A stretch of 47,031 nt of DNA from an uncultured Synergistales bacterium. Its GTDB lineage: Bacteria; Synergistota; Synergistia; Synergistales; Aminobacteriaceae. The number at the start of each line of letters is the position of its first letter. Position 1 is the stretch's first letter. The notes below the pieces were generated by a model. That model did no database searches, was not told where the DNA came from, and saw only the letters and a program-made list of their open reading frames with translations. Shown piece after piece: positions 14,383 through 35,098 of the stretch. Made by a program: the position numbers and the translations under genes. The stretch is taken from contig CAJOGI010000010.1 of NCBI GenBank assembly GCA_905234075.1, positions 1-47,031 on the forward strand. The letters run 5' to 3'.

Positions 14383-15394
14383 TTAAAACTTGCCTCCCTA
14401 AATATGAATAAGCATTAACCGTTGCTTTACGTCCACGCGGGGTACGCTCTAATAATCCTTTTTGAATTAAATAAGGCTCGTAAATATCTTCAATGGTCTG
14501 AGCGTCCTCGTTCAGTGCCGCTGCTAATGTGCTTAGGCCGACCGGGCCGCCGTTAAATAAATCTATAATAGCACGTAAGATCTTTCTGTCGCCTTCGTCA
14601 AGTCCCGAAGCATCAACTTCTAACATGTCCATAGCGCGTATAGCTGTCTCTGCATTAATTTCGCTATCAACTCCGTTTTGAACAGCAGCAACATCACGGA
14701 CACGCCGCAATAATCTCAAAGCTATTCGCGGAGTTCCACGTGAACGTTTTGCAATTTCTATAGTTGCTTCTTTATTTATGTTGACGTTCAAAACGCCGGC
14801 AGCACGCAATAAAATTTTTGAAAGTTCTTCGTCTGTGTAAAGTGCTAACTGTTCGACAATTCCGAAACGCGCTCTTAACGGCGAAGTTAAAAGTCCGAGC
14901 CTTGTCGTGGCTCCGCATAAAGTAAATTTAGGAAGATTCAATGCTATTGTTCGAGCTAAAGGGCCTTTACCGACAACAATATGAAGCGTGAAATCCTCCA
15001 TAGCCGGATATAAAATTTCTTCGACTTGAGGCGGCATACGGTGAATTTCATCAATAAATAAAACATCGTTGCGCTCAATGTTCGAGACTATCGCAGCCAA
15101 GTCTCCTGCACGTTCAAGAGCAGGGCCTGTCGTTGTGCGTAACTGTCCGCCCATTTCCTGAGCAATTATTCCTGCAAGCGTAGTTTTACCCAAGCCCGGA
15201 GGGCCGTATAACAAGACATGGTCTAAAGGCTCGCCGCGTCCTTTTGCCGCTGAAATATAAATTTTTAATTTCTCTTTGAGTTTTTCCTGACCCGTAAATT
15301 CATCAAGATATTTCGGCCTGACGCTGATGTCATCAGGCGAGCGCGGAGCGTCAAAAAATCTTACGGGCGAGTTAATAATTTCTTCTTCAGGCAT
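14372..15394 (-). CDS. ruvB: Holliday-junction branch-migration ATPase RuvB
   Basis: A 340-residue AAA+ motor that with RuvA drives branch migration of Holliday junctions. Walker A is GPPGLGKT (residues 64-71), Walker B is DEIH (115-118), and the C-terminal winged-helix domain begins around [14 protein letters not shown] and includes [12 protein letters not shown], which contacts DNA. It starts three bases after the ruvA stop. Confidence 0.98.
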
Positions 15395-16003: not shown

Positions 16004-16485
16004 GACATGATTTTTAATGCGAAGCCCGTTATGGCTGCTGCTAGAGCATCGGCTGTGTCGTCTGGCTTGGGAATTTCATCGAGAGCTAAAAATCTCTGTA
16101 CCATTCCCTGAACTTGGGATTTAACAGCGTCCCCAGTGCCGCACAAGGCTAATTTAATTTGATTGGGCTTTGGCTCAACAACGGGCAGATTATTTTGAGC
16201 CGCAAGCAGCATTACAACACCGCGAGCCTGAAAAACATATTCGGCTGTCGTTACGTTGTGCCCGAAAAATAAACGCTCTACCGAAACAAAATCGGGCTTG
16301 CAGATTTTTATCTGCGTCTGCAGTTCGTCATAAATTCTTAACAAGCGTTCAGTAAAGCTCATTTTCGGCGATGTCTCTATGCAGCCGTAGTTCAAAGCCC
16401 TTAACTTAAATCCCGACTGCGCGACAGCTCCATAGCCTACTCGTGCAAGGCCGGGATCTATTCCTAAACATACAGTATCTGACAA
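16000..16485 (-). CDS. ruvC: crossover junction endonuclease RuvC
   Basis: A 161-residue resolvase that nicks Holliday junctions. The acidic catalytic set appears as GIDPGLARVGYG near the start, VSVERLFFGHN in the middle, and PDDTADALAAAI near the end. The start is TTG at 16485, giving MSDTVCLGIDPG; no in-frame ATG lies between it and the catalytic Asp. It follows yebC by 14 bases. Confidence 0.96.
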   Translation of the reverse strand: MSDTVCLGIDPGLARVGYGAVAQSGFKLRALNYGCIETSPKMSFTERLLRIYDELQTQIKICKPDFVSVERLFFGHNVTTAEYVFQARGVVMLLAAQNNLPVVEPKPNQIKLALCGTGDAVKSQVQGMVQRFLALDEIPKPDDTADALAAAITGFALKIMS

Positions 16486-16499
16486 AGTTATAAAATAAT

Positions 16500-17255
16500 T
16501 TATTCGTCTTCAATCTGTGAAGCAACTTCGTCAGGAATTTCAAAATTTGAGTAAACGTTCTGAACGTCGTCGTGCTCTTCGAGAGCATCAACCAGCCTCA
16601 AAACTTTTCGCGCTGCTTCGGGGTCTGAAACTTCGACGGGAGTTTTCGCTATCATTGAAACTTCCGCGTTATCAACGACGTATTTATTATCTTCAAGTGC
16701 TTTTTGAAGCGTATCGAGGTCGCTAGGTTCGCAGTAAAGAGTGAAGCCCTCGTCGTTTGCTTCCATGTCCGACATTCCCGAATCAAGGCCGAGCGTCATT
16801 AAATCATCTTCATTAAGTCCTTTGCCTTTGACTTCGATAACGCCCTTGCGGTCAAACATCCAAGCAACGCTCCCGGACTCGCCCATTTGTCCGCCGTTGC
16901 GCGATAACAAGGCGCGGATTTCCGGTGTCGTTCTGTTTCTGTTATCCGTCATGACGTTTACGAGCACTGCAATTCCTGAAGGCCCGTAGGCTTCGTATGT
17001 AAGTTCATCGTATGAAATATCGCCGAGTTCGCCTGTTCCGCGTTTGATTGCGCGTGTAATGTTATCGTTGGGAACACTGACGGCCTTTGCACGTTCTATT
17101 GCGGTCTTGAGGCGCATATTCATTGCCGGATCTCCGCCGCCGTCTTTAGCTGCGATAATAATTGCGCGTACTAATTTTTGAAAAAGATTTCCTCTCTTTG
17201 CGTCCTGAGCCGCTTTGCGGTGTTTAATATTTGCCCATTTTGAATGTCCTGACAT
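16500..17255 (-). CDS. yebC: YebC/PmpR family protein
   Basis: A 251-residue member of the YebC family, long annotated as transcription regulators and more recently linked to relief of ribosome stalling at proline-rich stretches. The start MSGHSKWANIKHRKAAQDAKRG is diagnostic, as is the GPSGIAVLV...DNRNRT segment. It lies upstream of ruvC, a very common bacterial pairing. A clean binding site (AGGAGTGATATAAACC) precedes the ATG. Confidence 0.97.
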   Translation of the reverse strand: MSGHSKWANIKHRKAAQDAKRGNLFQKLVRAIIIAAKDGGGDPAMNMRLKTAIERAKAVSVPNDNITRAIKRGTGELGDISYDELTYEAYGPSGIAVLVNVMTDNRNRTTPEIRALLSRNGGQMGESGSVAWMFDRKGVIEVKGKGLNEDDLMTLGLDSGMSDMEANDEGFTLYCEPSDLDTLQKALEDNKYVVDNAEVSMIAKTPVEVSDPEAARKVLRLVDALEEHDDVQNVYSNFEIPDEVASQIEDE

Positions 17256-19056: not shown

Positions 19057-19929
19057 ATGGCCGAGATTACAGCCGCAAAAGTTAAAGAGTTACGCGAGCG
19101 CACGGGCTCCGGCATGATGGACTGCAAAAAAGCACTTGCCGAGACCAACGGCGACATGGAAAAAGCGATTGATTATCTTCGTGAAAAAGGTTTAGCGAAA
19201 GCCGCGAAGAAAGCTGAACGCACGGCAAGCGACGGAAGGATTTTCCATATCGTAAGCGAGGACGGAAAGCGCGGAGTTATGATTGAGCTTAACAGTGAGA
19301 CGGATTTTGTCGCGAAGACTGACGAGTTCAACGACTTGGGCAATAAATTAACCGCTCACCTTTTTGAAAAGTCATATAACGACCCGGCGGCTCTGCTTGA
19401 GAGTACTCACGAGACCGGCGTAAAAGTTAATGATTTGGTTACGGCAGTCATCGCTAAACTCGGTGAAAATATTGTCTTAAAGCGTTTCGCAAGATTCGAC
19501 GCTCCCAACGGCCGCGCTTTTTGCTACATTCACAGCAATTACAAAGTAGGTGCGCTTGTCGAACTTGACGCAGACAACACCGCAGCAATTAACTCGCCGG
19601 AATTTGCGGAGCTTGGGCACGAAATTTGTATGCAGATTGCGGCGGCTAACCCGTTATACCTTGTTCAGGAGGACGCACCCGAAGAGGTTTTAGAGCGTGA
19701 AAAAGCCGTTTACCGTCAGCAGCTTCTTGATGAAGGCAAGCCTGCGGACAAAATCGAAAAGATTTTACCGGGCAAGATTAGAAAATATTTTGAAAATACG
19801 TGCCTTCTTGAGCAGGAATATATCAGGGATTCTGACAAGAAAGTTAAGGATTTAATCGCCGAAACCGGAAAGAAACTCGGCGCAAAAATCAGCGTAAAAT
19901 GCTTCGAGAGATTTTCAATAGGAGAATAA
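19057..19929 (+). CDS. tsf: elongation factor Ts
   Basis: A 290-residue guanine-nucleotide exchange factor for EF-Tu. It opens with the UBA-like domain VKELRERTGSGMMDCKKALAETNGD, followed by the diagnostic dimer-face motif EDGKRGVMIELNSETDFVAKT. It begins two bases after the rpsB stop. It is followed by a long hairpin of heptad repeats rather than directly by pyrH. Confidence 0.98.
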   Translation: MAEITAAKVKELRERTGSGMMDCKKALAETNGDMEKAIDYLREKGLAKAAKKAERTASDGRIFHIVSEDGKRGVMIELNSETDFVAKTDEFNDLGNKLTAHLFEKSYNDPAALLESTHETGVKVNDLVTAVIAKLGENIVLKRFARFDAPNGRAFCYIHSNYKVGALVELDADNTAAINSPEFAELGHEICMQIAAANPLYLVQEDAPEEVLEREKAVYRQQLLDEGKPADKIEKILPGKIRKYFENTCLLEQEYIRDSDKKVKDLIAETGKKLGAKISVKCFERFSIGE

Positions 19930-19940
19930 TTTTTAATAAT

Positions 19941-20018
19941 GAGGGATTAGAGATGAGGAATAAGGGATTAATTTTGCTTTTCAATCCCTAATCCCTAACT
20001 CCTAATCCCTAATTTTTT
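19941..20018 (+). terminator. long heptad-repeat hairpin with T-run, just before pyrH
   Basis: Arm one (19941-19970) is built of GGGATTAG, GATGAGG and AAGGGATT units; arm two (19983-20012) is TCCCTAA and TCCTAA units complementary to it over about 29 positions with few mismatches. A short loop separates them and six T follow. This has the form of an intrinsic terminator, yet its T-run ends three bases before the pyrH ATG and leaves pyrH with no visible ribosome binding site. Confidence 0.7.
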
Positions 20019-20021
20019 ATT

Positions 20022-20732
20022 ATGCCAAAGTTCAAAAAAATTTTATTAAAAATGTCGGGCGAAGTCTTAGCAGGTGAAAACCACACCGGGCTTGACTTCA
20101 AAACGGTCAATAATTTTGCAAAAAATTTAGCTAAAATCAGAAATTCCGGGATTGAATTATCAATCGTAGTCGGCGGCGGCAACATGATAAGAGGCCGTGA
20201 TGCTCTTGATTACGGAATTGAACGGGCAAATATTGATTCTATCGGAATGTTGGGAACGGTCATGAACGCACTTGCGATTAAAGCGGCTCTTGAAAATCTC
20301 AAAGTCCCTGCTCAAGTTCTTTCAGCCGTCGGAATGCCGCCCATAGCAGATTTATATAACAGAGAACGCGCAAAAAATTTATTAAGCTCCGGGCACGTAG
20401 TTATCTTCGCGGCAGGAACTGGGCACCCGTTTTTTTCGACAGATACGGCGGCGGCGTTGAGAGCTTCCGAGCTTGGCCTTGACTGTGTTATAAAAGCTAC
20501 GAAGGTCAACGGAATTTACGATAAAGACCCTATGAAATATAATGATGCTAAATTTTTTCCCGAAGTTACGTACAGCGACGCAATAAAATTAAATCTCAAT
20601 GTTTTTGATACTGCGGCCTTTGCGTTGTGCCGCGAAAATAAAATTCCGATATGGGTCATAAGTATTCAAGACTCCGACTGGGTGAAAAATATTACAGAAG
20701 GAGCCAATGTCGGAACAATAGTAAGAGAATAA
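20022..20732 (+). CDS. pyrH: uridylate (UMP) kinase
   Basis: A 236-residue bacterial UMP kinase of the amino-acid-kinase fold, making UDP for RNA and wall precursors. Motifs are LLKMSGEVLAG near the start, IVVGGGNMIRG, FAAGTGHPFFSTDTAAALRA and the late KATKVNGIYDKDP. The ATG follows the repeat hairpin immediately and has no Shine-Dalgarno sequence. Translation may depend on leaderless or coupled initiation, or on a transcript made by processing. The order after tsf is conventional. Confidence 0.97.
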   Translation: MPKFKKILLKMSGEVLAGENHTGLDFKTVNNFAKNLAKIRNSGIELSIVVGGGNMIRGRDALDYGIERANIDSIGMLGTVMNALAIKAALENLKVPAQVLSAVGMPPIADLYNRERAKNLLSSGHVVIFAAGTGHPFFSTDTAAALRASELGLDCVIKATKVNGIYDKDPMKYNDAKFFPEVTYSDAIKLNLNVFDTAAFALCRENKIPIWVISIQDSDWVKNITEGANVGTIVRE

Positions 20733-20750: not shown

Positions 20751-21308
20751 ATGCCGAAAGATGAACTTGCTGAACTGAAAGAAAATATGGACAAGGCCAT
20801 AGCTTTTTTACAGAATGAATATCTCTCAATCAGGACAGGCCGCGCACATCCGGGACTTGTCAGCGATATTAAAGTCGATTACTACGGAACGCCAACGCCG
20901 ATAAAACAGCTTGCGAATGTAACCGTGCCGGAAAGCCGCTCGCTTCAGGTTGCACCGTTCGACAAAACAAGCCTCAAAGCAATCGAGAAAGCAATTTTAG
21001 CCGCTAATATAGGCATGACACCGCAAAGCGACGGGACAGTTTTACGAATGACCCTGCCGGAACTCACAAAGGCAAGGCGCGTTGAGCTGACGAAATTATT
21101 AGCGCGTAAGGCTGAAGAATCAAAAGTCGTCATCAGAAACTACAGACGCGACGCTATCGAAAATTTGAAAAAACAAGAGAAAGCCTCCGAAATTACAGAA
21201 GATGATCTGAAGAAATTTACTAAGGACGTTCAGGACATCACGGACAAGTACATAAAGAAGATTGACGAAGTTTATAAAGTCAAAGAAAAAGAAGTTCTCG
21301 AAGATTAA
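20751..21308 (+). CDS. frr: ribosome recycling factor
   Basis: A 185-residue RRF, which with EF-G splits post-termination ribosomes. FLQNEYLSIRTGRAHPGLVSDIKVDYYGTPTPIKQLANV and KKQEKASEITEDDLKKFTKDVQDITDKY are diagnostic. A good AGGAGG site lies 9 bases before the ATG. Confidence 0.98.
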   Translation: MPKDELAELKENMDKAIAFLQNEYLSIRTGRAHPGLVSDIKVDYYGTPTPIKQLANVTVPESRSLQVAPFDKTSLKAIEKAILAANIGMTPQSDGTVLRMTLPELTKARRVELTKLLARKAEESKVVIRNYRRDAIENLKKQEKASEITEDDLKKFTKDVQDITDKYIKKIDEVYKVKEKEVLED

Positions 21309-22508: not shown

Positions 22509-22531
22509 TTAAATTATATTTTAGAAATAAA

Positions 22532-22583
22532 GAGTTAGGAATTAGGAGCTAAATAAAAAATTCTTAATCCCTAATTCTTAATT
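22532..22583 (+). repeat. heptad inverted repeat before uvrD/pcrA
   Basis: GAGTTAGGAATTAGGAGCTA (22532-22551) pairs with the TTAATCCCTAATTCTTAA stretch (22564-22581) through a short AT-rich loop. No long T-run follows, so termination is uncertain. The helicase ATG comes 9 bases after it with only a weak AAAG in front. Confidence 0.7.
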
Positions 22584-27864: not shown

Positions 27865-28087
27865 AAAAAATTTGCTAAAAAATAATTGCGCCGTTTATAG
27901 TAAATTGAGCAGAAAAAAATTTTGCGATTCTATTTTTTTAATTTTCTCTGTAAATTTTTGTCGGGTATGAAAAAAATAAAAGTTTTTGTAATTGTAAAAG
28001 TAGTTGTAAAAAAATTTTCTTCGTGAATTTTCTGACAAAGTGAAAATATTTTAGCATAAAAATTTTTCTTGGGTGTAATAAAAAAAC

Positions 28088-28375: not shown

Positions 28376-30706
28376 ATGAATGAAAAAACAGCTGAAGAAA
28401 AATTAAGACAAGCCCTCGCAGGTGAAACGCCGGACAGCAGAAAAAAAGGACGATCGCTGCAAAGGGCAGTAAAACGGGCAAAAAAAATATCAGGAACAGC
28501 AAAAAAAACAGACCCGTTCATGGAAGACTTTGAGAAAAAAATAGAGCAAAGCCTTAATGTTGAGAGTACATTCAAAGCACCTTCCCCAAAACAAGCGAGA
28601 ACAATAATAAATAATAACGACGAACTGGGAATTATTACGCCTAAACAGGCAGGAGTTAGGAGTGAGAAGTTAGGAGTTATTGACGAGCCGGAAATTATCG
28701 ATACTCCTATAGAAAATTCCGAGCCCGTTGTCATTGAAGAAACAGAAGAACAGCCCGAAAATTTAGAGATTTCTGAAGAGCCGGAAGTCATTGACGCTCC
28801 TGTAGAAAATTCTGAAGTAATTTCTGAAATAGAGACAACGCCGGAGCAAGAAGAAAACCTCCTACCTCCTACCTCCTCATTCCTACCTGAACAAGAGCTT
28901 CCGGAAATTCCTTTAATTGAGGACGAAAATCAGGAAGAAGGGAACTTGCCCGACATTCCCGTAATAAGTGCTGAAGAAGATTATGAAGATGCCGAAGAAG
29001 CCGGCGAAAACGAAAATAAATCTTTGCCCGAAACTTTTTCGCCGTCTGCTGATGTTGTCTTAAATGTTGCTGAAGAAATTCCGCAGGCACAAGAAACCGC
29101 TCCAAGCCCTGAGGGCGCGGCTGTCCCCGTTTCAGTTGCAATGCCGGAGACGACTAAGACGGCTGAAGATAAATTAATGGCAGACATTGCAGAAGCCATG
29201 ACGGGAAATCCCTTAACGCTTGAGACACGCGAAACGCCTGAGCCTTATAAACTTCCCGAAAATTTTTTGAGCGAGGCCGATAATAATGACCCGTCCCGGC
29301 AGTCCGCCGAAGAAAAATTAATTGCTAATATAGCTCAGGCTATGTCAGAGTCTCCGCTTGAAACTGCACAGAATAACGCCTCCCAAAATCTTGAGGAAGA
29401 AATAAATAATCTTGATTTTGTTCCGTCGTTCCCGGATCACGAGGAGCGTTTAACAGAAGAGTTTGATTTTTCGCAATACGAAGAAGATACTCCCGAAGAG
29501 TCTGAGCCGGAGCAGCAGCCCGAAGATGAGCCGGAAAAGCCAGAGACTGAAATCGAGTCGGCCTTTGATGAAGTGCCTTTGCCTGAGCCGGTCCATGAGC
29601 CTGACCCTGAACCGGCCGAAGAGCTTGAAGAGGTAGGAGTTAGGAGTGAGGAGGTAGGAGGTATTAACGAGCCTGCTCAAGAAATTATTGACGAGCCGGA
29701 AATTATCGACACTTCCACAGAAAATTCCGAGCCTGTTGCTATTGATGAGACAGAAGAACAGCAGAAAGAACTAGAGGAATTTGAAGAGGTAGGAGTTAGG
29801 AGTGAGGAGGTAGGAGTTATTGAAGAGCCTGCGGAAAATTCCGAGACTGCTCAAAAAATTATTGACGAGCCCGAAATTATCGATACTCCCACAGAAGAAG
29901 AGCCGGAACAAGAAGAAAACCTCCTACCTCCTACTTCCTACTTCCTACCTGAAGACACGGAGGAATTACAAGAACAAGAAATGCCGGAACAAACATTAAT
30001 AGAAGAAAATAAAGATATAGAAGAAGATGTAACTACAGAACTTTCGCCCGAAAGTAGTTTTGAAGATACGGAAGATAATGCGGACGATTTTGATATTAAT
30101 TCGCTTGGTGCTCTCAGCGCGGCGGCTTCGGTTATGCCGGACTATGATGAGCCCGTTGAGGAATTTCCGCAAGAGCCTGAGCAAAACTACGAGGACAGCA
30201 ATTTTGATGACGGCTTTGGAAAAAATATGCCGACTCTTAACGACGTGATAATTAACCCCGAAGAGGAAAAAGAGAAGGAAAAAATTATGGGTATTCGAGA
30301 AAAAATGGCAGGAAGAAAAGATAAAACTATGAAAGAAACATCAGGAGACAGCAAAAAGAAAAAAATTTCAGCATTTTCGGGCGGGATTTTTATGCCGTTG
30401 CTGTTGATTTCGCTGCTTGCTGTAGGCGGTTTTATAGCGTGGCAGTTAATGCAGCTCAACGATAAATTAACGGGCGGCCTTATGAACATGGGAATGAGCG
30501 CAGGAACTTTTGACGCGGTGCCTGCTGAAAAAAATCCCTCGTATGAATACGCAATAGATTTTATTTTTGATACAAATTTGTCAACGCGAATGGCCCAGCG
30601 CGGTAAAGAGGGCTGGCAGGTCGTAGGATCGCGCCGGACTCAAGACAGCATAACCGGCCAGTTAGGTTATGAATTTATTTTCATGCGCAAAACTCCGGGT
30701 AAATAA
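28376..30706 (+). CDS. large acidic, repeat-rich membrane protein upstream of ftsY
   Basis: A 776-residue protein of unknown function. Residues 1-650 are low-complexity and rich in Glu and Pro, with three related short motifs (AEEKLRQALAG, AEDKLMADIAEAM, AEEKLIANIAQAM) and long repeated blocks of the type EPEIIDTPTENSEP. Five heptad-repeat arrays are translated in it, as GVRSEEVGV-like or LLPPTSSFLP peptides. One transmembrane segment lies near residues 668-690 (MPLLLISLLAVGGFIAWQL), and the last 55 residues (YEYAIDFIFDTN...RGKEGWQVVGS...YEFIFMRK) resemble the small DUF4177 fold. It ends two bases before ftsY. A scaffold or membrane-tether role is only a guess. Confidence 0.75.
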   Translation: MNEKTAEEKLRQALAGETPDSRKKGRSLQRAVKRAKKISGTAKKTDPFMEDFEKKIEQSLNVESTFKAPSPKQARTIINNNDELGIITPKQAGVRSEKLGVIDEPEIIDTPIENSEPVVIEETEEQPENLEISEEPEVIDAPVENSEVISEIETTPEQEENLLPPTSSFLPEQELPEIPLIEDENQEEGNLPDIPVISAEEDYEDAEEAGENENKSLPETFSPSADVVLNVAEEIPQAQETAPSPEGAAVPVSVAMPETTKTAEDKLMADIAEAMTGNPLTLETRETPEPYKLPENFLSEADNNDPSRQSAEEKLIANIAQAMSESPLETAQNNASQNLEEEINNLDFVPSFPDHEERLTEEFDFSQYEEDTPEESEPEQQPEDEPEKPETEIESAFDEVPLPEPVHEPDPEPAEELEEVGVRSEEVGGINEPAQEIIDEPEIIDTSTENSEPVAIDETEEQQKELEEFEEVGVRSEEVGVIEEPAENSETAQKIIDEPEIIDTPTEEEPEQEENLLPPTSYFLPEDTEELQEQEMPEQTLIEENKDIEEDVTTELSPESSFEDTEDNADDFDINSLGALSAAASVMPDYDEPVEEFPQEPEQNYEDSNFDDGFGKNMPTLNDVIINPEEEKEKEKIMGIREKMAGRKDKTMKETSGDSKKKKISAFSGGIFMPLLLISLLAVGGFIAWQLMQLNDKLTGGLMNMGMSAGTFDAVPAEKNPSYEYAIDFIFDTNLSTRMAQRGKEGWQVVGSRRTQDSITGQLGYEFIFMRKTPGK
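28650..28679 (+). repeat. heptad array 1 inside the acidic protein gene
   Basis: GGAGTTAGGAGTGAGAAG and a further TTAGGAG unit, read in frame as AGVRSEKLGV. Confidence 0.85.
28857..28890 (+). repeat. heptad array 2 (opposite orientation) inside the acidic protein gene
   Basis: CTCCTAC units, the complement of GTAGGAG, read in frame as LLPPTSSFLP. Complementary to arrays 3 and 4, so the mRNA could fold on itself. Confidence 0.85.
29630..29663 (+). repeat. heptad array 3 inside the acidic protein gene
   Basis: GGTAGGA, GTTAGGA, GTGAGGA, GGTAGGA units, read as EVGVRSEEVGG. It heads a block that recurs about 160 bases later. Confidence 0.85.
29786..29819 (+). repeat. heptad array 4 inside the acidic protein gene
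   Basis: Nearly identical to array 3, read as EVGVRSEEVGV and followed by a similar DEPEIIDTPT segment, which points to duplication of the whole block. Confidence 0.85.
29919..29950 (+). repeat. heptad array 5 (opposite orientation) inside the acidic protein gene
   Basis: CTCCTAC and TTCCTAC units, read as LLPPTSYFLP. It is complementary to array 4 over about 30 bases across a 100-base loop. Confidence 0.85.
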
Positions 30707-33082: not shown

Positions 33083-33193
33083 CTCTTGAAAAATTTTTTA
33101 GGAGGGTTTTTGGCGTCATTTTTTTTCGTGTTCTTAGCTGAGAACGAAAAATTTTGCAACTGATAAAACAAACATTTTTCAAGGAGTTCTTTG
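33083..33193 (+). repeat. duplicate of the terminator-promoter segment found before the DUF3798 gene
   Basis: This stretch is clearly homologous to 35017-35145: the same hairpin (CTCTTGAAAAA with TTTTTTAGGAG), then TTCTTAGCTGAGAACGAAAA, CAACTGATA and a CAAACATTTTTC-AAGGAG stretch. Here the -10 is degraded (TAAAAC for TATAAT) and the binding site leads into a remnant of another gene rather than a complete one. Confidence 0.8.
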
Positions 33194-33194
33194 C

Positions 33195-33272
33195 GATTAT
33201 GTAAATCAATTCGAGACGCTCCCGGAAAAATATAAAGAGCCTCAAGGCAGACTTGCACGATTACTTCGGTGA
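33195..33272 (+). pseudogene. C-terminal remnant of a deleted 5'-nucleotidase copy
   Basis: The 25 codons before TGA read DYVNQFETLPEKYKEPQGR then LARLLR, almost the same as the end of the 5'-nucleotidase downstream (DYVSQFETLPEKYKEPQGR at 34921-34977). It joins directly to the duplicated promoter and binding site, so the body of a gene copy has been lost. From 33273 to 33378 I see nothing but AT-rich spacer and the binding site of the next gene. Confidence 0.8.
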
Positions 33273-33378: not shown

Positions 33379-34992
33379 ATGAAAAAATTTTAGCGTTTTT
33401 ATTTGTTGCTGTTCTTTTCGCCGCGTCGTGCGAAGGGGCAGTGCCGCAAGATGATATTATTATTCTCTACACTAATGACGTTCACTGCGGAATTGATGAT
33501 GTTATAGGCTACGCAGGTGTCTCAGCATACAGGCAGGAAATGCAGAAAGTAACACCGTATGTAATTCTTGCTGATGCCGGAGACTGGGCAAGCGGCGGCA
33601 CAATAGGAACAATCTCGCTGGGCGGTTACATTGTTGAAATTATGAACGCCGTAAAATATAACGTAGCTGTTCCCGGCAATCATGAATTTGATTTCGGAAT
33701 GGAACAGTTCAAGAAACTTGCCGCGAGCCTGGACTGCGGTCTTACTGCCTGCAATTTTAGAGATTTACGCACGGGCGAGCTTGTTCTAAAGCCTTATAAA
33801 ATTTTTGAATACGACAATGTAAAAATTGCTTTTATCGGAGCTGCTACGCCTGATACTGTTGTAACATCAAATCCCTCGTTCTTTAAGGACAAAGATAAAA
33901 ATTACATCTACGGCTTTAGCGGTGAAGATAACGGCAAAAAATTATATGAGACAATTCAAAAGGCCGTTGATGAAGTTAGAGGCTAAAGGCGCAGATTATG
34001 TAATTCTTGTCGCTCACTTGGGCGAATATAAAAGAGATGTTACGAAACATTGGAGCACACCGACCGTTGTTGCCAACACGAGAGGAATTGACGCAGTCAT
34101 TGACGGACACTCCCATGAAGTTACGCCGGAATTAAAAATTAAAAATCTTGACGGCAAGGACGTAATCATAACGCAGACCGGGACGAAGTTAAACCATTTA
34201 GGAAAAATGACGCTTAACAAGGAAGGCAAAATCTCGACCGTTCTTTTAAGTTCAGCGGACGTAAAAGCCAAAGATGAAAAAATCGTCAAGCTCATTGAAG
34301 ATATTAAAGCAAAATATGAGGGAACTCTTGAGCAAAAATTATCTCATGCGGATTTCGATTTGCCTGCTATAAATAGTAATGGAGAATGGCTCATCAGAAA
34401 CGGCGAGACAGGGTTATGCAACCTTGTAACTGATGCTTTTCTTGTGGCCGCAGCTAAAACTCCTACCGGCAAAGCTGACATAGCTTTGTTAAACAGCGGC
34501 GGTATCAGAGCCAACATAAATGCCGGAGATGTTACGCTAAACAGTGTCGTGAATGTTCTGCCCTTCATTGATTATATTTGCATTGCTGAAGTTCCCGGAC
34601 AATCAATTCTTGACGATCTTGAAATAGGAGCAAGGAACATGCCCGGCAATGAGGGAGGACTTTTACACGTTGCCGGCATGACTTACAAAATAAATACAGG
34701 TATTCCCACGCCCGTCATAATGGACGATAAAGGCAACACTGCTATCTCCGGAGACAGAAGAGTTTGTGATGTCTATGTGAACGGCGAGCCTATAGACCCT
34801 AAGAAAATTTATAAAGTTATTTCTATTGATTATGTTTTGCTTGAAAACGGAAACGGGCATGTATTCAAAGGAACAAAAATAATTGAGCCTCCGTTTTCTA
34901 TAGCATATGAAGTATTGGGAGATTATGTGAGCCAGTTTGAGACGCTCCCGGAAAAATATAAAGAGCCTCAAGGCAGAATAAAAATAAAATAG
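33379..34992 (+). pseudogene. 5'-nucleotidase gene with two frameshifts
   Basis: The ATG at 33379 is followed by AAAAAA TTT TAG; one more A would read MKKILAFLFVAVLFAASC, a signal peptide, in frame with the body. The metallophosphatase domain follows (IILYTNDVHCGIDD, GNHEFDFG), then a one-base insertion near 33976 breaks the frame at EVRG; it resumes as EAKGADYVILVAHLG and DGHSHE. The C-terminal substrate-binding domain has NSGGIRANI. The intact ancestor would be a periplasmic enzyme of the UshA/NutA type that releases nucleosides. The nucleoside-like transporter downstream supports that. Neither lesion is large; a sequencing error could explain one of them. Confidence 0.8.
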
Positions 34993-35016
34993 AATTAAGT
35001 TAAAGAAAATTAACAG

Positions 35017-35049
35017 CTCTCTTGAAAATTTTTCAGGAGAGTTTTTTTT
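35017..35049 (+). terminator. terminator after the 5'-nucleotidase gene
   Basis: CTCTCTTGAAAA pairs with TTTTTCAGGAGAG (one wobble) and eight T follow. A related copy lies at 33083-33110. Confidence 0.8.
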
Positions 35050-35098
35050 GCGTTATTTTTTTTCATGTTCTTAGCTGAGAGCGAAAAAATTTTGTAAC

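Follow-up and report, generated by a model that had tools for sequence, protein, structure and literature searches.

A dispersed heptad palindrome before pyrH, very probably in place of an ancestral terminator-like hairpin, in a clade of rumen Synergistaceae

Introduction

The genes tsf, pyrH and frr follow one another in the window (the whole stretch of DNA analysed here, 47,031 nucleotides, part of the 1.84 Mb genome G000, whose nearest named relatives are rumen Synergistaceae MAGs). A hairpin accompanied by a run of T lies between tsf and the essential gene pyrH, and pyrH carries no Shine-Dalgarno (SD) sequence before its start. How can an essential gene be expressed from behind such a structure, and where did the structure come from? 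The features on which the answer depends are the following.

19057-19929, + strand: tsf (elongation factor Ts), last codons ATA GGA GAA TAA (open reading frame; orthologues lie upstream of pyrH in the genus)
19920-19924, + strand: SD-like AGGAG across the final codons of tsf, a candidate distal half of a split ribosome binding site for pyrH (codon comparison)
19935-19969 and 19983-20017: arms of the inverted repeat (arm search on the window sequence)
19935-20017, no strand: heptad palindrome or RNA hairpin, very probably in place of an ancestral GC-type terminator-like hairpin (fold z-score; orthologous spacers)
19938-19970, + strand: 5' heptad array of TTAGGAR type, left palindrome arm (array scan)
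19983-20014, - strand: 3' heptad array of CCCTAAT units, right palindrome arm (TRF period 7 and array scan)
20013-20018, + strand: T6 run, after or within the stem base; a comparable T tract is kept only in the window and in genome G042
20022-20732, + strand: pyrH (UMP kinase), start without SD (open reading frame, orthologues, SD scan)
20751-21308, + strand: frr, with an ordinary SD, AAGGAGG (open reading frame and SD scan)
22521-22583, no strand: second heptad palindrome, 9 nt before the SD-less start (22593) of a uvrD-like gene; present in G007 and G018, absent in G042

The hairpin and the pyrH start

An earlier note on this DNA, made from the letters alone, had described a near-perfect hairpin of heptads with about 29 pairs, followed by six T that end three bases before the pyrH ATG. 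The heptads are there, forming both arrays listed above, and the T6 run does end 3 nt before the ATG at 20022. The inverted repeat is likewise real and better than chance: its minimum free energy (MFE) was -26.7 kcal/mol (z -2.96), a value equalled by 1 of 200 shuffles and by none of 125 windows of equal AT-richness, so that it has the stable hairpin expected of an intrinsic terminator. It is not near-perfect. The ungapped arms are 77% complementary, and the MFE structure contains internal loops and 31 pairs in total, of which 23 join one arm to the other, 8 are G-C and 4 are G-U; in this register part of the T run sits within the stem. A terminator scan of the pyrH upstream region, which allowed loops of up to 8 nt, did not include the hairpin among its matches; the loop here is larger. 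The only known RNA family matched in the window was a tRNA.

The annotated start of pyrH is correct, since MPKFKKILLKMSGE opens the protein and relatives match from residue 1. The absence of an SD, also claimed by the earlier note, was confirmed over the 22 nt upstream of the ATG. A promoter scan listed no -10/-35 pair close before 20022, the nearest one ending at 19940.

A hairpin between tsf and pyrH is common to the genus

Searches for pyrH succeeded in nearly every genome of the genus, and each locus was taken with 2 kb flanks; pyrH and tsf of G039 and G028, both incomplete genomes, were not found. Comparison of the tsf-pyrH spacers revealed a hairpin almost everywhere. All 27 spacers of the GC type contain one, typically CCCC-R-GTGTGAA...TTTGCGC-Y-GGGG followed by a T-rich stretch. 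In the alignment of these 27 spacers 90.6% of cells were paired and 7 of 13 pairs showed changes on both sides. Of 500 shuffles, 0 or 1 attained such values, and sliding the partners against each other destroyed the signal. A hairpin is also present at this junction in Fretibacterium (L095, L096). On these comparisons, the tsf-pyrH hairpin goes back to the ancestor of the genus. The motif occurs essentially once per genome, at tsf-pyrH, besides a few unrelated pattern matches, and we therefore rejected the idea that the ancestral hairpin is itself a dispersed repeat.

In E. coli, too, a Rho-independent terminator follows tsf and is read through, so that transcripts continue into pyrH-frr (PMC6131387). 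The two junctions are alike in holding a hairpin at the same place; they differ in that E. coli has one conventional terminator, whereas the palindrome in the window is AT-rich, is built of repeats and has a T tail that lacks conservation. The earlier note had regarded the junction as part of a normally continuous operon and a hairpin before an essential gene as surprising. Neither view survives the comparison: in this genus a hairpin is the rule, and because it is ancestral, expression of the essential gene across it is normal here. Among the options offered by the earlier note, readthrough is the most plausible.

Heptad arrays and the apparent loss of ancestral terminators

In five genomes (the window's own G000, together with G007, G018, G009 and G042) the tsf-pyrH junction lacks the GC hairpin and contains a heptad palindrome at that position instead. 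A tree built from tsf plus pyrH places the five genomes together. G020 (L082), which has a GC hairpin and no SD, falls inside or beside them, a placement that is weakly resolved (55-69% support), and G017 (L064) is the next branch outside the heptad clade. At its own tsf-pyrH junction G017 has an SD and a different palindrome, unrelated to the heptads in sequence. The G017 palindrome (L064 / L166) is GC-richer, CTCCCCTTTCTAAGGGGAG...TCAACTTTAGTTGA, and itself supplies the SD, GAGAGG.

TTAGGAR heptads are abundant in G000, G007, G009, G018, G042 and G039, with 0 or 1-3 occurrences elsewhere in the genus; in G000 the pattern matched 427 times and the reversed pattern 22 times. A scan of 705 kb of G000 for arrays gave 157, and the reversed control gave 22. 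The array lengths have a sharp maximum at 32-33 bp, 291 of 342 arrays consist of 4-5 units, and close neighbours nearly always face each other (+-), so that they form palindromes. Across about 1.76 Mb from five genomes, the arrays were strongly depleted from gaps between divergent genes (14 of 242 gaps, compared with 120 of 440 gaps without arrays; odds ratio 0.16, p 5e-13). They start at a median of 3 nt past the upstream stop codon, the stop codon lies inside the array in 94 of 256 cases, and the G-rich strand is the sense strand after stops in 189 of 279 (against 90). Some arrays within the 705 kb of G000 are located inside genes.

The arrays also differ between close relatives. A 32-bp array of G007 is missing from the window at 15388, and the palindrome before the uvrD-like gene is missing in G042. 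G000 and G007 have very different palindromes before pyrH, and nearly identical ones at 22521-22583. Judged by these sequence differences, heptad arrays move or turn over.

The replacement at tsf-pyrH has counterparts at other loci. Between rpmF and htpG, non-heptad relatives mostly have a GC hairpin (GCCGGAGGT...CCTCCGGCTTT); G000, G018, G009, G039 and G042 have heptad palindromes there, and G028 has a heptad-like one. We then matched gene 3' ends to 400 kb of a single reference genome, G038, using simple home-made ORF calls and a home-made terminator detector. Among loci with a canonical terminator in G038, and with duplicate loci removed, a terminator of non-heptad type survived at 1 of 15 in heptad gaps and at 13 of 19 others (p 3.6e-4; raw counts 1/22 and 15/25). 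The result was the same with windows of 200 and 260 nt as with 110 nt, beyond which an inserted palindrome could push a terminator. Heptad gaps were not enriched for G038 terminators (22 of 47, compared with 25 of 58 other gaps), which gives no support to a preference of the heptads for terminator sites; the arrays appear instead to settle near stop codons generally, with the old terminator lost afterwards. Taken together, the comparisons make it very probable that the hairpin before pyrH is a copy of the dispersed heptad repeat and that it has replaced the ancestral hairpin.

Heptads occur in other lineages as well. G081, from another genus of the family, has 41 TTAGGAR matches and its congener G082 has none, a patchy distribution. 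G023 and G021 carry many arrays of a different unit, TAGGGNN, amounting to a heptad expansion in other lineages of the genus. In G023 (L087) a TAGGGNN-type palindrome lies directly before an intact ancestral tsf-pyrH hairpin, an arrangement that, from its sequence, looks like an intermediate state.

Translation of pyrH and an SD-like site at the end of tsf

SD use is clear in G000, where 277 of 582 genes have at least 5 matching bases, compared with 67 after shuffling, and the 16S 3' end carries the usual CCTCC. Nonetheless, 133 of the 582 genes have no SD at any early start. Read by eye, pyrH lacks an SD in 10 relatives without heptads, including the probable sister G020 with its GC hairpin; in G017, the next branch, pyrH has one. 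Because relatives with ordinary hairpins share it, the SD gap need not stem from the palindrome, and the alarm that the earlier note attached to it is not supported.

One codon at the end of tsf distinguishes the heptad genomes. The last Gly codon of tsf is GGA in all five and GGC or GGT in all 30 others (29 in a second scoring), genomes in which GGA accounts for 38% of Gly codons. No other codon among 297 conserved columns of tsf, pyrH and frr is fixed in the clade while missing outside it. The change converts GGCGAGTAA to GGAGAGTAA and thereby creates an SD-like (A)GGAGA at the tsf stop. In the linear sequence this site lies 73-97 nt from the pyrH AUG; with the palindrome folded, predicted structures reduce the distance to medians of about 14-19 nt.

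We considered whether the tsf-end SD and the folded palindrome might together form a split ribosome binding site for pyrH, an idea that we hold tentatively and regard as somewhat doubtful. Precedents exist in phage T4 genes 25 and 38, where, as mutations support, a hairpin within a split site cuts the spacing from 22-27 to 5-11 nt (PMC3014915). The likeness is that an SD too distant from the AUG is brought close by an intervening hairpin; here, in contrast, the shortening from 73-97 to about 14-19 nt comes from prediction only, and the SD lies inside the end of the preceding gene. Several points argue against a split site. In the modelled folds the spacing of 14-19 nt exceeds the 5-11 nt seen for T4. 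Most sampled folds also leave the tsf-end SD paired (accessibility 0-7%), although a terminating ribosome could melt it. Relatives with a GC-type hairpin, no SD and GGCGAG at the tsf end manage without an SD-like site. Finally, the GGA switch was noticed after looking and may be a single event.

A further point against a split site is that an SD upstream of an abutting palindrome is not supported as a general rule: read by eye, such SDs occur at about 2 of 11 genes of this kind. At htpG, an SD-like GAGGAG at the end of rpmF is present in G000 only, and not in G018, G009 or G042.

Candidate explanations for the pyrH palindrome

The explanation that best accommodates these results begins with a REP-like dispersed palindrome of two facing arrays, each with about 4.6 TTAGGAR heptads. 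In one clade of a genus of rumen Synergistaceae, such arrays would have settled just past stop codons and displaced GC-type intercistronic terminators, and at tsf-pyrH the palindrome very probably took over the site of the conserved terminator-like hairpin. RNA polymerase would read through it, by analogy with the E. coli tsf terminator. With GGA as the last Gly codon of tsf, (A)GGAGA would serve as an SD-like site at the tsf stop; the folded palindrome would loop out and leave this site about 14-19 nt from the AUG in predicted folds, and ribosomes finishing tsf would be handed on to pyrH in the manner of a split ribosome binding site. As a whole, this combination of repeat replacement, readthrough and split site is probably correct, if by no means securely so. 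Its strongest form, that a selfish heptad palindrome was co-opted, with the terminator displaced, the tsf Gly codon changed to give an SD and the palindrome bridging that SD to the AUG, is less likely and we put it forward as speculative.

Alternatively, a mobile or slippage-born repeat may have been inserted neutrally or parasitically and tolerated because neither termination nor an SD was needed, with the GGA codon a coincidence. The array absent from the window at 15388, the palindrome absent before the uvrD-like gene in G042, the strong difference between the pyrH hairpins of G000 and G007 and the arrays inside genes are all consistent with this. However, neutral insertion sits less well with the bias of the arrays to positions after stops and their depletion from divergent gaps, with the GGA switch as the sole clade-fixed codon in 297 columns, and with a hairpin kept in five of five species. 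We regard it as rather unlikely, though a serious contender.

It is unlikely that the heptad hairpin acts as an intrinsic terminator or attenuator and has inherited from the ancestral terminator the task of lowering pyrH-frr relative to rpsB-tsf. Its position is that of the conserved terminator-like hairpin, a T6 follows the stem in the window and a T5 in G042, and T-rich tails are commoner beside palindromes (37 of 114) than 20-52 nt away (28 of 228). Yet the T tract is weak in G009 and absent in G007 and G018, and in co-directional gaps T tails are as frequent on the antisense strand (14 of 47) as on the sense strand (13 of 47). Because tails are equal on both strands and the tract is missing in G007 and G018, the T6 is weak evidence for termination, and we rejected this strand-symmetric tail as proof of it. 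The paucity of G-C pairs (8 of 31) and the ability of the U run to pair within the stem also speak against a terminator.

A further reading makes the stem an RNase III-type processing site, where cleavage would part the tsf and pyrH messages and make the latter nearly leaderless. The stem is long, imperfect and located in intercistronic mRNA, and RNase III involvement has been proposed for the NEMIS palindromes of Neisseria (PMC2229807). Cleavage would, however, remove any SD at the tsf end, and we consider this reading quite improbable. Repeat-rich junctions are prone to misassembly, but an assembly artefact, one of the refutations foreseen in the earlier note, can be excluded for practical purposes: five species, each assembled separately, have a palindrome at this junction between intact copies of tsf and pyrH.

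Discussion

The closest known kin of the TTAGGAR arrays, as judged from sequence, are the heptameric repeats of Xanthomonas and Nostoc, GGGAATC and GGGGA(C/T)T, whose function is unknown (PMC4692102). Those repeats share with the present arrays the 7-base unit, a preference for about four units and a mostly intergenic location (PMC4692102). In both, the G-rich strand is sense near or overlapping stop codons, repeats are scarce between divergent ORFs and vary between close species, and in Xanthomonas pairs face each other as inverted repeats. Unit count, orientation, scarcity in divergent gaps and facing pairs were thus all found here; GGG tracts were not. The TTAGGAR unit, from another phylum, has GG only, and lacking GGG it offers no basis for the three-quartet G-quadruplex proposed for the Xanthomonas and Nostoc repeats. 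The arrays described here differ further in standing where relatives have GC-type terminators.

REP and MITE-type palindromes are also dispersed near gene ends, with proposed roles in termination and mRNA stability (PMC3733652, PMC2229807). The heptad palindromes resemble them in this dispersal and differ in that their arms are tandem heptads and that arrays also occur singly.

Bacterial heptameric repeats have been catalogued without a known function, and their presence at the terminator sites of relatives provides a testable link to transcript 3' ends. If the split site is real, pyrH would offer a rare example in which a dispersed repeat forms a structural part of an essential gene's ribosome binding site, and this hairpin-bridged site would lie within a genome-wide swap of terminators for heptad repeats. 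It is the exchange of terminators for heptads, together with the coincident SD-like change at the tsf end, that deserves attention.

Other repeats in the window

Five further heptad arrays (28651-28679, 28857-28888, 29626-29663, 29782-29819 and 29919-29950) lie inside an ORF of 776 aa (28376-30706). They sit within Glu/Pro-rich repeats whose segment lengths differ in G007, and they are reminiscent of palindromic elements that have inserted into coding genes. At 27914-28068, a dispersed repeat some 150 bp long belongs to a family separate from the heptads, with dozens of related copies in G007 (about 71-83% identity). Opposite 16479-16502 of the window, G007 (L161) is about 110 bp longer and contains palindromes of GTCAGCTAACGCTGAC type and CCTCCCCTT... 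type, possibly a second mobile palindrome family. Lastly, the segments 33102-33251 and 34921-35092 hold two direct-repeat pairs (57 nt at 91% and 54 nt at 87% identity), which are about 1.7-1.9 kb apart and adjoin a region that differs in sequence in G007.
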